DNA of 38,205 nt from Acholeplasmataceae bacterium (GTDB taxonomy: Bacteria > Bacillota_I > Bacilli_A > ML615J-28 > CAG-698): assembly GCA_012718985.1 (NCBI GenBank), contig JAAYBG010000099.1, forward strand, positions 1-38,205, written 5' to 3'. Under the pieces are notes generated by a model. It saw only the letters and a program-made list of their open reading frames with translations. It was not told the origin of the DNA and ran no database searches. This document shows positions 31,068 through 37,972 of this stretch, piece by piece (within the stretch, counting starts at the first letter, position 1; the number at the start of each line of letters is the position of its first letter). A program made the position numbers and the translations under genes.

Positions 31068-33707
31068 TTATTTTGTTCTATGATCAATATATAGATAATC
31101 GACCTTTTCTATCTCCACAACAATACGTCTTTCCATACCTAAAGCATAGGAATAAGATAAAGATATATCGCTTAAAGGACTGCCATCTTTGATATAGCTC
31201 TTTTTAAAGGTATATCGACCATCGCGCATGAACAAAGTGAATCCATTACAACGAAGTGTGGCTGTTGGCAATGTGCTTGCACCATCATCATCTCGATAGT
31301 AAATATAAAATTCATAAGCTTCATCGGTTTCTTCAACAACAAAGGTATAGTACTCTGGCATATTCTTCAATGTTTTAAATGAGCCAGAAGAAAGAGAACG
31401 TCGCATTTCTTGTTTACTCGTTTCAAAATAGATATCGAAAGTATATTGAGTATTATGTACTAGTTGTTCTAACACCACTTGATTGTCAACTACTTCATAA
31501 AATTGTTGATTGAATTTGATAAATACTTTATTCACATCTTTACCCATGGTGTCAACCACATCAATAGTCAGTGTCGCTGACGTTTGCGTTGTTTCCTTAA
31601 CTTCATAGGTAATAATTGGATCGCGAACGACGATTAAAACACAATTGGCATCGCTTCGCTCTTTTCCATCAGAAGGAGAATTAGTAGTGATAAACTTATC
31701 CCCACTGCGAATTACCATTGTTGAGGAGCCACCACCATCAAGATTATATGCTTCTACACATCCATAGGCAGACATAATAGCTGCTAATTCACGAGCATCG
31801 GCTCCATACATCGCTTTATTGCCTTGTCGGCCGTCAATTACCATCATCACAATCGTTCCATCTTCCTTTTGACCGATTACGGTTCGTGGAGCACGATCAT
31901 TAATTGCCGATGTCGTTGCTGGTAATAAGGTAACTCCTCCACCAGTAATATCCGTAGCAGCTGCATAAGCACCTATATATTCAAATTGGCAACGAATTTT
32001 TTTACCAACTGCAAGAGCATTGTTTACCGTTTCATTATTTGTAACAATCGCAAAATTACCCTTTGTAATTGTAGTTGATTTTGTTGATGAAATAACACCT
32101 AAGCCATAGAAATCAGTGGCATTATTTGGCAATGCTTTGATTGCTTCCCCAACAACATAACCATTTTTCCCCGTTAAATCTAACTCAAAACTAACAATCT
32201 CTTTATCGCTATTATAAGTAGCAAAGTAAATACTCGTTTCATTACTACCTGGGGCTTGATTTAATTTATCAATATCAAACTCTTCAACAATCCTGTTATT
32301 CTCATCATAAATAGCTAGGATCATCTTCTCAGTACGTTTGACTACCTCATTACCGATTAGCGTGTTGGTAGAACCATCATTGGTAAATCCAACTGTTCGC
32401 CCCGTAGAAGTTTTATAAAACTCCCCATTAGAAACCATTGCTCCGCTAGTTTGATAAGGAAGATTCCCTTTAGCTCCAATATCAAAGAAATCACCATTAA
32501 TCGCAGCAATTACTTTCCAACCAGGATTGGCTTCCTCATATTTATTAATCAAAGCTCTCACTGTTGCCAGTGCCCATTTATGCCCATCGAGATTTGCCCA
32601 AGTAGTTATTCTAATATCTGTTGAAGAAGGAACTTCTAAAACATTGACTTGTTGAGGGTAGAGTTTATCGGGAACAATTTCTTCAGTAATTCCACTATAA
32701 CCATCTGCATCAACCCCTGATAATGGAGTAGATGTAAAGGCTCTGTTTGTGGAGTGAATCACACCATAAGGTAACTCATGATAAGCAGTAATTTCATCAA
32801 CGATATAGTTCGCTCCCAAGATGTTACTTGCATTTACTGCCTCTACAACGATGATTTCCTTGGCATATTGAATATTTGAATTGCTTTTTGCCGTTGCTGT
32901 TATTAGTACAGTTCCAATGCTTTTACCAAGCAAGATTCCTTCTGGTGTAATAGAGGCAATATCCTCATTGTTTGTTGTCCATATAACTTCATCAAAAACG
33001 TGATTGGGATATATTTCCCCCTTCAAATCGATTGTCTTACCAATCATAACAACATTGCGACCCGTTATACTTATTTTTTCTGTTTGATAACTCAGGTTCT
33101 TTGCTGTAACAACAATTTCATCGCTTAATTCAAGGTATTCATGGTAAGAATAAGTTGCAGTTATGGTAGCTGAACCAACAGACAATGCTGTTACATTTCC
33201 CCCAGAATCAACATAAATCGTCGACAGATCACTACTTGTCCATGAAGACAACACAATTTCTTCACTCGGAGTTATTTGTGTCGATAAACTAATCGTTTCT
33301 CCTATCACTAATTCCAACTCTTCCACCGCTTCAAGAGCTTCATTCTGGATGGTAATCGCTAATTCACCCGTTACAGTAACAATTACTTCAGCACTAATTG
33401 GCTCTTTATCGGGAACGGTATAAGTAGCCGTTATCGTAGTTTGCCCTTGAGATAGAGCAATGACTGAACCATTTTGATCAATACTGGCAATAACAGGGTG
33501 CTCGCTATCCCATGTAACAGTTACACTCTCTTCTTTCGGTATTAACATCGCTTCTAAAGTGCTCTCTTCCCCGACTTCCAAATCGAGAATAGTAATCATT
33601 TCCCCAGCCTTGTTATAAATATTCAATACCGTTTTTTTACAACCAACTAACCAAAAGCCAACAAATAAAACCAGCAAAAATAAACATAATTTCTTTTTAA
33701 ATTTCAT
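31068..33707 (-). CDS. Lipoprotein with three BIG2 Ig-like domains and a NAGPA domain
   Basis: This 879-aa surface protein has, in order, a lipobox LVGC (Cys23 from my start), three bacterial Ig-like (BIG2) repeats and a NAGPA domain. The repeats span roughly 30-115, 118-205 and 207-290; each ends in a form of G-ATITATY, as in GSATITATY. The NAGPA domain carries AINGDFFDIG, DRAPRTVIGQKEDG, VIDGR and CVEAYNLDGGGSST. A C-terminal beta-rich region matches the two smaller paralogues. The Ig repeats probably hold the enzyme away from the membrane. I prefer ATG 33707, with GAGAGG just upstream, to the track's 33719. It is co-transcribed with the M42 peptidase gene, whose stop overlaps this region. 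Confidence 0.86.
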   Translation of the reverse strand: MKFKKKLCLFLLVLFVGFWLVGCKKTVLNIYNKAGEMITILDLEVGEESTLEAMLIPKEESVTVTWDSEHPVIASIDQNGSVIALSQGQTTITATYTVPDKEPISAEVIVTVTGELAITIQNEALEAVEELELVIGETISLSTQITPSEEIVLSSWTSSDLSTIYVDSGGNVTALSVGSATITATYSYHEYLELSDEIVVTAKNLSYQTEKISITGRNVVMIGKTIDLKGEIYPNHVFDEVIWTTNNEDIASITPEGILLGKSIGTVLITATAKSNSNIQYAKEIIVVEAVNASNILGANYIVDEITAYHELPYGVIHSTNRAFTSTPLSGVDADGYSGITEEIVPDKLYPQQVNVLEVPSSTDIRITTWANLDGHKWALATVRALINKYEEANPGWKVIAAINGDFFDIGAKGNLPYQTSGAMVSNGEFYKTSTGRTVGFTNDGSTNTLIGNEVVKRTEKMILAIYDENNRIVEEFDIDKLNQAPGSNETSIYFATYNSDKEIVSFELDLTGKNGYVVGEAIKALPNNATDFYGLGVISSTKSTTITKGNFAIVTNNETVNNALAVGKKIRCQFEYIGAYAAATDITGGGVTLLPATTSAINDRAPRTVIGQKEDGTIVMMVIDGRQGNKAMYGADARELAAIMSAYGCVEAYNLDGGGSSTMVIRSGDKFITTNSPSDGKERSDANCVLIVVRDPIITYEVKETTQTSATLTIDVVDTMGKDVNKVFIKFNQQFYEVVDNQVVLEQLVHNTQYTFDIYFETSKQEMRRSLSSGSFKTLKNMPEYYTFVVEETDEAYEFYIYYRDDDGASTLPTATLRCNGFTLFMRDGRYTFKKSYIKDGSPLSDISLSYSYALGMERRIVVEIEKVDYLYIDHRTK

Positions 33708-33715
33708 TTTTCCTC

Positions 33716-34753
33716 TCATCCTTCATATGGGTTAAAATTAAAGTTCTCATCGATTTCTAATATTATATCTTCAATTAAACGAATGACCTTTTCAACATCA
33801 CGCATATCCACCAGTTCCGCAGAAGAATGCATATTCCTTAAGGGAATGCTGATTAAAGTAGTCGGTACTCCTAAATTAATCGTATGAATGGCATCAGCAT
33901 CCGTATAAGAACGATAAACAACAGTTTCATTTTGAAGAGCAATTCCCAGTTTACATGCTCGCTCACGAATAAACGCTTCCAATTTTTTATTCATTGTCGT
34001 TCCCGTAGCAAGGATAGGTCCTCCGTTTAAGCGGTTCAAATTACCATTTTCCAAATTAGGTGAAACTGAAGTATCACTACCCACATCAACTACAATAGCC
34101 ATATGGGGATTGATCGTTCGAGCAGCCACCAAAGCCCCGTTTTTAGTAGTTTCTTCTCCTACGGTGCTTGCGCAATAAACACCATTCTTCGCCTTTTTTT
34201 CTTTGGCACGACGCATTGCTTCCGTTATAGCATAGACACCTATTTTGTCATCGAGAGCTCGAGCGCATAGAATATTTTCATTGATTACTCGGTAAGTAGC
34301 ATCATGTAAAACCAAATCACCAATCTTTACTAGTTTTTCTGCTTCTTCTTGGGTGCTAACCCCTAAATCGAGAACTAAATCTTTTACTTCAACCTTCCTA
34401 TCAAAACTTTGACGATTCTTTGCAATTGCACCATAAATTATTTGTTTTTTTGTTATGATTTGAACTCGTTGCCCTACATATACACCCGGCGTAATCGAAC
34501 CTACTTCTTCTAATAAGCAACGCCCATCGCTTAAAATTTGCGAAATAGTTAACCCGATTTCATCAGCATGAGCCGCTAACATAATCCTAAAAGGAGCTTC
34601 AGGATTACAAATACCAATCACATTCCCAACATGGTCAGTAATTACTCGATCGGCAATCTTCTCCATCTGTTTAATTACTAGTTTTTGTAAGGGATATTCA
34701 TATCCCGATATTGAATGTGTTTCTAAAAGATCATATAGAAATTTTCTATTCAT
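33716..34753 (-). CDS. M42 family metallo-aminopeptidase
   Basis: This cytosolic di-metal peptidase is of the glutamyl aminopeptidase/FrvX/PepA-like group. Metal ligands and catalytic residues are visible in order: His in AAHADEIG, Asp in ARALDDKIG, the Glu pair in STVGEETTKNG, Asp in VVDVGSDTS and His in MHSSAELVD. The 345-aa length is normal. I chose ATG 34753, with GGAGG five bases upstream, over the track's ATG 34765, which lies inside that signal. An extended -10 promoter is just upstream. The role is trimming of imported peptides. Its link to the downstream surface protein is unexplained. Confidence 0.9.
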   Translation of the reverse strand: MNRKFLYDLLETHSISGYEYPLQKLVIKQMEKIADRVITDHVGNVIGICNPEAPFRIMLAAHADEIGLTISQILSDGRCLLEEVGSITPGVYVGQRVQIITKKQIIYGAIAKNRQSFDRKVEVKDLVLDLGVSTQEEAEKLVKIGDLVLHDATYRVINENILCARALDDKIGVYAITEAMRRAKEKKAKNGVYCASTVGEETTKNGALVAARTINPHMAIVVDVGSDTSVSPNLENGNLNRLNGGPILATGTTMNKKLEAFIRERACKLGIALQNETVVYRSYTDADAIHTINLGVPTTLISIPLRNMHSSAELVDMRDVEKVIRLIEDIILEIDENFNFNPYEG

Positions 34754-34845: not shown

Positions 34846-35184
34846 CTATAAGCCGAATATTAATAATCCTATCGCAAATGAAAAAACATTTGCTAGTGCT
34901 GTAAGCAAAAACAATCTTTTTTTGTTTGGAAAAAATAAATGATATATTTTCCATTCTCCAAAAATTACTGCAATCTCTAAGGGAAAAATATAACAATAAT
35001 CAGGAACCTTTGTCAATGTTACTCGCAGTAAATAGACTATTAGATTTAGTAAAATATTGCTGGCAATATTAGTATAAAGAAATATTTCCCAAAATAATCG
35101 TTCGCGATATTGAAACAAGAAAAAGATAATGCCTTCTAATCCTAAAGTAAGGAATAAAGCTAAGAATAAATAAATCCAATCCAT
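34846..35184 (-). CDS. Small integral membrane protein, 112 aa, unknown
   Basis: I recognise no family. The protein is almost wholly hydrophobic, with about four likely membrane helices and short charged turns (QYRERLF, FPNKKRLF). Its ATG overlaps the stop of the preceding 59-aa gene (TAATG), so it is translated only in step with that gene. It is the last gene of an operon with an MFS carrier and two other tiny membrane proteins. The overlapping track line 34805-34996 is a shadow. Confidence 0.75.
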   Translation of the reverse strand: MDWIYLFLALFLTLGLEGIIFFLFQYRERLFWEIFLYTNIASNILLNLIVYLLRVTLTKVPDYCYIFPLEIAVIFGEWKIYHLFFPNKKRLFLLTALANVFSFAIGLLIFGL

Positions 35185-35363
35185 TACTCTTCCAAATGAG
35201 AATTATCTTTTTGAGTTTCTTCGCCATTGACTTTGGTTTTTTTTGCTTTTCTAGTAATCAGTTTAATAACCAATAAAATAGAAGCTATTGCCCCGATCAG
35301 CAAAAAAAGAATAATCGCCAAAATACCGATAATTATTGGTCCTGGAACTACATCAACAATCAT
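35184..35363 (-). CDS. Single-span membrane micropeptide, 59 aa
   Basis: This gene is too short for the ORF track. It reads MIVDVVPGPIIIGILAI..., with one long hydrophobic helix (about residues 8-36), then a basic patch (KLITRKAKKTK) and an acidic polar tail ending SHLEE. By the positive-inside rule the tail is cytosolic. Its ATG overlaps the stop of the 47-aa gene (ATGA), and its own stop overlaps the next ATG (TAATG). This double coupling argues strongly that it is a real gene. I know no family for it. Confidence 0.72.
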   Translation of the reverse strand: MIVDVVPGPIIIGILAIILFLLIGAIASILLVIKLITRKAKKTKVNGEETQKDNSHLEE

Positions 35364-35503
35364 TTTTTATTCCCTCTTTTCCATTTAATCATAAATAAAA
35401 TAAAACAAACAATCGTTATCAATACAATAACTGAGCCAATCACAATATACCAAAAATTAACTTCTTCATAGAATTCTGGGGCGATAATATCAATAAAATT
35501 CAC
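35360..35503 (-). CDS. Single-span membrane micropeptide, 47 aa
   Basis: This gene is absent from the ORF track. It starts with GTG at 35503, inside the end of the MFS gene in another frame. AGAGGTGA lies about six bases upstream. It reads MNFIDIIAPEFYEEVNFWYI, then a hydrophobic helix (about 18-38) and a basic end KWKRGNKK, which predicts N-outside and C-inside. The stop is shared with the ATG of the next gene (ATGA). The function is unknown. Position and coupling suggest a subunit or assembly partner of the MFS carrier. Confidence 0.68.
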   Translation of the reverse strand: MNFIDIIAPEFYEEVNFWYIVIGSVIVLITIVCFILFMIKWKRGNKK

Positions 35504-36536
35504 TTTTTTTCACCTCTTTTGAAAATAAAATAACAAAAATGATGGTTAAGAGAGAGGCAATAAGAATAATCAGATTATACCTTGTCGGATATTCTTGTAA
35601 ATACATCCCAATAACATAACCAGGAAATAAAACCATTGCTGCTAGTCCAAAGGCAGTCGCTTCATATCTTGGCATCATTTTGTATAATAGATAAAGAGTA
35701 ATTGGCATTGTCATATTAAATAACAGTATTCCTAGAAGTCCACCGATTATACTATCTCTTGCAAATAGTAAAAATCCTAACGAACCTAATCCGCTAATAA
35801 GGATAGTCTTAGTTATTCCGATTTTGTCGGCGAGGACACCCCCTAACAATTTCCCTAAAGCTGTAGCAATTGCTACAAGTAAAACCAGATATGCCTCGTC
35901 AGCCCAATTAAAAACAGTGTATTTACCAATAATCCCCCGAAACATGACGATTATGATAACGCCAACAATCATAACTATTTTTATATTCGTTAATGATAGA
36001 TTTAAACTTTGTTTTTTTTGCGTTTCATCTAAAAATTCTTTTTTTTGATGAAAAATAAGATAATAGCAACCCCCTATCAAGATAGTTAAAGTAATAAGAA
36101 TTACTAACAAGGAAGAAAATTGATAATACAGCATCCCTAAGGTTAATCCCACAACACCTAAAGAGACAAAAACTCCAAGCAAGCTTAGTTTCTGATTGCT
36201 ATTTGTAATCGTTATTTTACCGGCAGATACATGAAATAAAGCATTACCTAAACCTAAGAATAATAGACATAAATAAGGTATACTTCCTAACAAAGAACCA
36301 GTAACGACTAAAAATAAAGAACCTAAAACGAGTAATCTTTCTTTTTTAACGGTGTCTACTAAGAACCCTACCAATGGTTGCATCATAAAAGCTAAAACAT
36401 TATAACCAATAAACACTATCGTTGGAAGAATGATATTATCTTTGTATAAACTAGCATAAATTGTCGTTGAACAAATCCCATCGACCAACATGTGGAGAAC
36501 TGTTAGAAAAAAAACTTCTATTCTTAATTTCTTCAT
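35490..36536 (-). CDS. MFS transporter
   Basis: This 348-aa membrane protein of the major facilitator type is on the short side for the family (usually about 400), with roughly ten to eleven helices. MFS-like features are PLVGFLVDTVKKERLL near the 2-3 loop, GLGNALFHVSAGK (as in fosmidomycin-resistance-like carriers) and LGGVLADKIGITK in the second half. The substrate is unknown. The end of the gene contains the ribosome-binding site and start of a 47-aa membrane peptide, beginning a four-gene coupled operon. The RBS AAGGAA is before ATG; the promoter is not clear. Confidence 0.83.
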   Translation of the reverse strand: MKKLRIEVFFLTVLHMLVDGICSTTIYASLYKDNIILPTIVFIGYNVLAFMMQPLVGFLVDTVKKERLLVLGSLFLVVTGSLLGSIPYLCLLFLGLGNALFHVSAGKITITNSNQKLSLLGVFVSLGVVGLTLGMLYYQFSSLLVILITLTILIGGCYYLIFHQKKEFLDETQKKQSLNLSLTNIKIVMIVGVIIIVMFRGIIGKYTVFNWADEAYLVLLVAIATALGKLLGGVLADKIGITKTILISGLGSLGFLLFARDSIIGGLLGILLFNMTMPITLYLLYKMMPRYEATAFGLAAMVLFPGYVIGMYLQEYPTRYNLIILIASLLTIIFVILFSKEVKKSEFY

Positions 36537-36618: not shown

Positions 36619-36647
36619 GGAAAAACCCAGTTTTAAAAACTGAGTTT
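36619..36647 (-). terminator. Terminator of the acyltransferase gene
   Basis: On the minus strand AACTCAGTTTT and AAAACTGGGTT form the stem (one G-U pair), followed by TTTCC. Confidence 0.8.
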
Positions 36648-36682: not shown

Positions 36683-37909
36683 TTAAAGTCCCAACTGATG
36701 AATATCTATAGTATTCTCTGTTTTTTCTCCTTTATGATTTACTTTAAATTTATAATATTGGAAAACGAGTAAATATTTATATGGACTAGAAAGCCCATCT
36801 AAAACTAGGAAAAACGTTTGTCCATCAGAAAGGTAGATAATAAGTTTATTTTTACCTTGAATAGCAATGGTTGTAATCTCCTGATAGGAATAATGGCAAC
36901 TTAATTTATCTCCTGCAAAACTCATTCCTTCAGGGGTAATGTTGAATTCAAGCAAACCTTGAGGTTCCTTCTTACCTTGTTTACTGATGAAAACCCTCGC
37001 TTTATCCTTGAAAATAATTTCACCAGTAAATTTATGTAAATAAGCAATCAGATTTTCTTTATTTTTTTGATCTGCTTCTACCAATGAAATTTCTTTTTCG
37101 CCATCTTCCAAATATCCATAATCATTGTAATGAGCTTGATATCCGCAGCTAAAGCACCGGATGTCCTCTCCTTCTCCACGTAAGGTCAGCGCTTTATGAC
37201 AATTAGGACAAATAAATAATAGTCGTTCCAATCCTTCTGCTTTCTTTTTACCGCGATAACACTCTCGTGGTTCATCGTAGCAATTATAAGTAAATTCTTT
37301 TTTAATTGCCTCATATAATTCATCATTAGTCCAAGTATTAAAATCTTTAGGGTAGAGAATTGTTTTTATTCCCCCAACTGTTTTTCCATATCTTCTGGTA
37401 ACACCCCAGCGCGGATTGCTTAAGTAGAAACCTTTAGTTCGATAAAAAATAACAGGAACATTGAGAAACTTAACTAGTTTTGCGATACTCGGTGATAAGG
37501 GGGCAGTTTTACCCGTATAGGTTAGATTACCCTCAGGAAGAATACCAACGTTTCCGCCTTCCTCGATGATTCTTTTCATTTTTTTTATTGTTCCGACATC
37601 GGATAATGATTTTCTTTTTGAAATAGGATTAAAGACGAATTTCAATAGTTTCGTAACAAAACCCAAGTTAAAAATCTGGTCACTAGCAACAAAATAAACT
37701 GGAGCATTAAAAGATAGCCCGATAAAAGCCGGATCTAGAGCAATAGAGTGATTTGCTAGAATTAAAAATGGACCTTTCTTTTTAATATTACTTCTTTTTA
37801 CCTCATAACGATAAACTATCTTGGCAAAAGGCCAAAATATGATTTTTGAAAATGCATGAAAGAAGCGATGACGAAATTTGACTTCCTCATGTTTGCGTTT
37901 TTTTTCCAT
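36683..37909 (-). CDS. PlsC-like acyltransferase with zinc-ribbon extension
   Basis: This is a phospholipid/glycerol acyltransferase. The HX4D motif is NHSIALD, and the second block reads GILPEGNLTYTG, with PEGN in place of the usual PEGTR. A C-terminal extension absent from classic PlsC holds a four-cysteine zinc ribbon (CPNCHKAL...CFSCG), then a beta-rich tail of about 130 residues. I place the start at ATG 37909 (408 aa): GTGGTGA is four bases upstream, and the promoter's -35 box lies where the track start (37972) would be. The likely role is acylation of lysophosphatidate or a related lipid in the membrane. The ribbon's partner is unknown. Confidence 0.85.
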   Translation of the reverse strand: MEKKRKHEEVKFRHRFFHAFSKIIFWPFAKIVYRYEVKRSNIKKKGPFLILANHSIALDPAFIGLSFNAPVYFVASDQIFNLGFVTKLLKFVFNPISKRKSLSDVGTIKKMKRIIEEGGNVGILPEGNLTYTGKTAPLSPSIAKLVKFLNVPVIFYRTKGFYLSNPRWGVTRRYGKTVGGIKTILYPKDFNTWTNDELYEAIKKEFTYNCYDEPRECYRGKKKAEGLERLLFICPNCHKALTLRGEGEDIRCFSCGYQAHYNDYGYLEDGEKEISLVEADQKNKENLIAYLHKFTGEIIFKDKARVFISKQGKKEPQGLLEFNITPEGMSFAGDKLSCHYSYQEITTIAIQGKNKLIIYLSDGQTFFLVLDGLSSPYKYLLVFQYYKFKVNHKGEKTENTIDIHQLGL

Positions 37910-37943
37910 ATAATCACCACTTTTATACATAAAGATTAGTCTT

Positions 37944-37972
37944 ATTATACCAATTTTTCTTCCTATTAACAA
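37944..37972 (-). promoter_or_regulatory. Promoter of the acyltransferase gene
   Basis: TTGTTA, 17 bases ending TGG (extended -10), TATAAT. It rules out the upstream start given in the ORF track. Confidence 0.75.

Follow-up and report, generated by a model that had tools for sequence, protein, structure and literature searches.

A conserved operon of an MFS carrier and three small membrane proteins as a probable multi-subunit transporter

MFS carriers are usually taken as single chains, yet several described systems place such a carrier beside a partner protein. EmrA-EmrB consists of an MFS pump and a periplasmic adaptor (PMC4158417). The mycobacterial carrier Rv1410 (P55) acts with LprG, an operon-encoded extracytoplasmic partner (PMC10576003), and the eukaryotic carrier MFSD1 depends on GLMP, an accessory membrane subunit (PMC6819133, PMC11252000). 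Transporters are also bound and tuned by proteins with a single helix or of very small size (about 50 aa), such as AcrZ, WatS1, and similar examples (reviewed in PMC10710835). The same review cites Willson et al. 2019 for bacterial MFS carriers with fused C-terminal domains.

The locus described here lies in a window of 38,205 nucleotides, the whole stretch of DNA analyzed, from an Acholeplasmataceae bacterium. In place of a single chain, one MFS family is paired with, and repeatedly fused to, a four-helix protein that belongs to no database family. A further protein, recognizable by an outward-facing D-[V/I]...P motif, accompanies them. Like EmrAB, the system joins an MFS carrier to a dedicated single-helix partner with its bulk outside the cytosol (PMC4158417). 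However, EmrA forms a long coiled coil and serves as the adaptor to a channel in the outer membrane, whereas the partners considered here measure 42-300 aa and have no adaptor fold by Pfam; the present system also occurs in bacteria without an outer membrane and adds the four-helix protein. Searches with Pfam and NCBIfam returned no adaptor-family match of an EmrAB-type tripartite pump in the four window proteins or the scanned partners. The operon-encoded extracytoplasmic partner is shared with Rv1410-LprG, and the top fold matches of a modeled MFS/four-helix fusion include MHAS2168, a homologue of Rv1410. Rv1410 nevertheless belongs to the DHA2 carriers with 14 helices, and LprG is a lipoprotein that binds lipids, whereas this MFS has 11 or 12 helices (11 in the modeled carrier) next to a separate or fused four-helix protein. 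Its minimal partner is a 42-aa protein with no ectodomain, and Pfam gave no LprG-like match.

The proposed dependence on an accessory membrane subunit recalls MFSD1-GLMP, but that pair is eukaryotic, its subunit is unrelated, and it has neither a four-helix partner nor a D-[V/I]...P motif. The 47- and 59-aa proteins of the window, with one helix, about 50 aa, and a basic tail, fit the size and helix number of AcrZ and WatS1; those proteins, however, act on RND pumps, and a conserved N-out Asp motif with constant operon linkage is not described for them. An extra C-terminal domain on the carrier is also found in the fused MFS proteins, but the examples named in PMC10710835 are soluble regulatory domains (CBS, CNBD, PAS, UspA), in contrast to the membrane-embedded four-helix domain seen here. 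The initial annotation had called a multi-subunit carrier unusual for the MFS. EmrAB, Rv1410-LprG, and MFSD1-GLMP are precedents for that kind of system, and it is the composition of MFS, four-helix, and D-[V/I]...P proteins that is apparently undescribed. Its remark that no described system has this form agrees with the open-access full text, where no multi-subunit MFS system of such make-up was found.

The four-gene operon in the window

All four genes are encoded on the minus strand, in the order MFS (348 aa), 47 aa, 59 aa, and 112 aa. The MFS gene occupies 35490..36536. It is overlapped by 14 nt by the 47-aa frame (35360..35503), which starts with GTG and is preceded by a Shine-Dalgarno-like AGAGGTG at 35511..35517 on the same strand, inside the 3' end of the MFS gene. 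The 59-aa frame (35184..35363) follows through a 4-nt ATGA overlap and has a Shine-Dalgarno-like AGAGGG stretch before its start, and the 112-aa frame (34846..35184) is joined to it by a 1-nt TAATG overlap. The four frames and their out-of-frame GTG, ATGA, and TAATG junctions are thus present as first annotated. A hairpin with a T-tail resembling an intrinsic terminator (36623..36647, minus strand) separates the upstream acyltransferase gene from the MFS gene, so the operon probably starts at the MFS. A functional tie to this PlsC-like neighbor was considered and rejected, because the terminator-like hairpin intervenes and genome G001, from the same genus, has another gene there. The neighbor (36683-37972, minus strand) is a PlsC-type acyltransferase; its chain continues with a CxxC...CxxC stretch resembling a zinc ribbon and then with a C-terminal domain for which Pfam gave no strong match. 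Farther along the same strand, positions 31068-33719 encode an 883-aa putative lipoprotein with Big_2 repeats and an NAGPA phosphodiester glycosidase domain.

Membership of the 348-aa protein in the MFS follows from a Pfam MFS_1 match of 38.8 bits (gathering cut-off 33.4) and from the family alignment. The alignment displays conserved LHxLVDGxC in TM1, GxGNxxFHVxGGK in TM4, an Arg in TM7, and conserved charged and polar positions along the helices. LHxLVDGxC and FHVxGGK resemble the fosmidomycin-resistance-like subgroup (HxxxD in TM1, FHP in TM4), but no NCBIfam model matches the window protein. The shortness of this carrier, noted initially, lies in its loops: it aligns across all MFS helices and keeps a TM12-like helix. 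Bacteroidales members, by comparison, end just after TM11, with the four-helix part directly next or fused.

Each of the two smallest proteins has a single helix and a basic end, as initially noted. The 47-aa protein begins MNFIDIIAP and ends in the basic tail KWKRGNKK, and its net charge is -4 just before the helix and +5 after it. The 59-aa protein begins MIVDVVPGP and has a basic segment after the helix, followed by a polar tail; the corresponding charges are -1 and +6. Both N-termini contain the D-[V/I]...P motif, and both proteins are assigned an N-out orientation.

G001 is the sole genome of the same genus with the MFS, and its operon order is identical to that of the window. The equivalents of the MFS, 47-, 59-, and 112-aa proteins measure 344, 47, 58, and 112 aa, with amino-acid identities of 56, 36, 48, and 45%, and both the 14-nt and the ATGA overlaps are kept. 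In the same order, pN/pS values are 0.30/0.69, 0.35/0.59, 0.39/0.87, and 0.39/0.72; synonymous sites are near saturation, and pN < pS is therefore read as a sign of constraint and gives no rate. Loss of the small frames or of the gene order had been named as the result that would speak against the initial proposal, and neither is observed: all four frames have pN < pS, and the order persists in G001. The second small protein of G001 reads LDAMS..., without V/I and without P. Direct homologues of the 47- and 59-aa proteins are few, although the latter shows weak similarity to a 57-aa protein at the equal position in locus L042. Within the order to which the window belongs, the 10 genomes with the MFS are the identical 10 with a close four-helix relative (E < 1e-30). 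In a sister family, the 112-aa homologue comes directly after the MFS, without 47- and 59-aa genes, and a gene for a secreted protein precedes the MFS.

The four-helix partner and the motif protein across lineages

The 112-aa product was recognized as a four-helix membrane protein from the alignment of relatives, from homologous four-helix domains, and from fusions to the MFS. Ten residues are invariant in nine aligned relatives (T13, E17, N39, N43, N47, E70, E77, Y81, N99, S102), and no model in Pfam or NCBIfam recognizes the family. A scan of one genome per species yielded 80 MFS loci, a few of them relatives already known, and 90 loci were analyzed. They belong to Bacteroidales/Prevotella, Lachnospiraceae, Negativicutes, and Anaeroplasma-like Bacilli. 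MFS and four-helix protein form one ORF in 15 of the 90 loci and are adjacent in about 70 more; the four-helix protein went undetected in only three, one of which (L092) lies at a contig edge. Where the two are split, 55 of 67 measured junctions fall within -29 to +40 nt. Over 85 loci, the distance matrix of one protein corresponds to that of the other (Mantel r 0.88, a value that none of 500 permutations reached).

AlphaFold models a natural Bacteroidales fusion with pLDDT 91.5 and pTM 0.84, as eleven MFS helices plus four. The PDB fold matches of this model are MFS carriers, and a PDB sequence search with the MFS/four-helix profile returned nothing; no solved structure matches the four-helix part.

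In Bacteroidales, the two genes of a split pair mostly share a reading frame and are parted by a single stop codon. Fused and split forms of the pair in Prevotella loci differ by little more than one codon. At L073, L079, L083, L100, L102, L106, and similar Prevotella loci, the two genes are in-frame with one stop codon (TAG, TAA, or TGA) between them and an ATG within a few codons. Stop-codon read-through was considered for these pairs and set aside, as re-initiation is simpler when all three stops occur and an ATG lies so close; occasional read-through may still take place.

A third component, of which the 47- and 59-aa proteins are the local forms, is defined by the motif [L/A]-D-[V/I]-x(1-5)-P near the N-terminus or directly after a signal peptide, with the Pro most often five residues after the Asp. 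Examples are MTILDVPPLP, MFLDIAPGYAGG, MLFLDIITGP, MILLDVLPITP, ..RA|DVIWEP, and ..YA|DVPDPYGRP. At 80 of the 90 loci, the neighbor is a small D-[VIM]...P protein that has a signal or membrane tail; this count is partly post hoc and descriptive, since some loci were already known when the pattern was drawn up. The same pattern occurred in 3/90 distant same-strand control windows and 4/90 on the opposite strand. Motif ORFs with a C-terminal helix and basic tail were found at 69/90 loci, against 0 and 3 in the controls. When a Shine-Dalgarno sequence was required, 39 loci remained and nearly all Bacteroidales were lost, as expected of a phylum that seldom uses Shine-Dalgarno; the requirement was dropped.

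Motif, helix, and basic tail are constant features of this component, whereas its ectodomain varies from nothing (42-aa proteins) to SH3-like, repeat-type, or long-linker forms. All 49 signal-less short forms have a net charge of 0 or below just before the helix and +2 to +6 just after it, and so obey the positive-inside rule for an N-out protein. For Bacteroidales versions with Lys-rich linkers, where the pre-helix net charge rises to +12, N-out topology is uncertain. Gene order also varies, although the components remain together. The window has MFS-motif-four-helix, most loci have MFS-four-helix-motif, and the sister family has motif-MFS-four-helix. All three components are present in the window, where genes for two motif proteins separate the MFS gene from the four-helix gene. 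Pfam and NCBIfam searches of the four proteins from the window, together with ten partners of other lineages, gave only MFS_1, a weak SH3_3, and List_Bact_rpt, small-protein matches being below cut-off.

A candidate multi-subunit carrier and competing readings

The best explanation, to which we assign a probability of roughly 0.6, is that the locus encodes one membrane complex built on the MFS carrier, with small subunits docking from outside. Fusion, co-inheritance, and motif conservation point to a physical complex. The MFS would provide the transport path, presumably by secondary active transport, and the 112-aa protein would be permanently packed against it. The two smallest proteins, of 47 and 59 aa, would be bitopic subunits with an outside N-terminus. 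Their Asp-Val/Ile-x-x-Pro end may dock on the outer face of the carrier/four-helix pair while the basic tails anchor them inside; they probably gate, stabilize, or select substrate for the carrier. Other lineages would use the same subunit with an SH3-like, repeat-type, or linker ectodomain. The initial proposal of a multi-subunit carrier is retained as the best reading, with the small frames and their order conserved, but its treatment of the three small proteins as one set is not: the 112-aa protein is the core partner, and the 47- and 59-aa proteins belong to an interchangeable third component, defined by a D-[V/I]...P motif that the initial annotation had not noted. Translational coupling alone is no proof of fixed stoichiometry.

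A broader proposal, about evenly balanced in our estimate, is that these loci form a widespread, undescribed class of hetero-oligomeric MFS transporters in at least two phyla. The four-helix subunit would complete the carrier, beside TM12 or replacing it in Bacteroidales, and the outside Asp-Val/Ile...Pro peptide would dock as a built-in gate.

Fusion and co-inheritance also fit an enzyme/substrate or a transporter/regulator pair. The motif proteins could be clients, with the MFS/four-helix pair delivering or flipping a molecule, perhaps a lipid, by which the partner N-terminus is modified, processed, or helped in its export. Such a role would account for conservation centered on the N-terminus, beside the signal or hydrophobic stretch, next to a variable ectodomain; a Cys soon after the motif in some f2-family partners and the long N-out tails without signal peptide in Bacteroidales point the same way. 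A processing system, however, would be expected to have scattered clients, whereas each locus has a single motif partner, apart from 8 listed loci that have two, and motif-type ORFs number 9 in 379 kb of flanks against 71 inside cassettes. The SH3-type partner occurs once per genome in 5/5 Lachnospiraceae genomes and so looks like a dedicated subunit, and the Cys does not sit in a consistent lipobox. Given the rarity of motif ORFs in flanks and the single SH3-type copies, a dedicated subunit fits better than scattered clients, and the client role is judged unlikely.

Somewhat less probable still is a receptor or sensor role, in which the MFS no longer transports and a signal is passed on by the small proteins. 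MFS-derived sensors such as UhpC exist, and at some loci (L107) an XRE regulator gene overlaps the MFS start; nevertheless, the loci contain no kinase and no consistent regulator, and charged and polar positions remain conserved along the helices. That the operon merely co-translates membrane proteins without joint function appears very improbable: short overlaps and dense operons are common in small Bacilli genomes, but this would leave the MFS/four-helix fusion, the co-inheritance across phyla, and the recurrence of the motif protein despite changes of order without explanation. Spurious 47- and 59-aa frames, suggested by their shortness and lack of a database family, can practically be dismissed in view of the retained position, overlap, and near-identical lengths in G001, pN < pS, the Shine-Dalgarno-like stretches, and the common motif and charge pattern.

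Should the proposed carrier complex hold true, it would be well suited to studying how permanent subunits are acquired by an MFS carrier. Genes of 42-60 aa that annotation overlooks can be constant parts of a system, and the loci give a function-directed lead on many gut and rumen bacterial proteins that lack annotation, the D-x-G-P-K-P/four-helix fusions of Bacilli among them.

The four-helix domain in other settings

The profile search with the 112-aa protein also retrieves these fusions, proteins of about 285 aa (AD-GPKP proteins) in many Bacilli (L130-L154). They comprise a signal peptide, a mature N-terminus reading D-x-G-P-K-P, a domain rich in beta structure, and, at the C-terminus, a four-helix domain to which the 112-aa protein is homologous (E 3.5e-20). 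As an independent link, a D...P N-terminus and a four-helix domain share one chain here without an MFS, which makes it more probable that the motif belongs with the four-helix domain than with the MFS. For L047, a member of the family, neither Pfam nor NCBIfam gave a match. An AD-GPKP protein was modeled by AlphaFold with pLDDT 92.4; in Foldseek, the beta domain of the model resembles CBM-type folds (E 1e-3 to 1e-2), and the four helices have no convincing match. A PDB sequence search with the AD-GPKP/four-helix profile gave only folate S-components, at non-significant E values of 0.19 and 1.6.

Two further arrangements were observed. In a Negativicutes locus (L112:5026-5499), the four-helix protein itself begins MMLFDVPVITP and thus carries the motif at its own N-terminus. 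In several Bacilli genomes (L033, L035, L038, L039, L041, L043, L046), a solo four-helix gene with no MFS nearby is followed by a lipoprotein gene (..GCY.., ..LNSPAP..).
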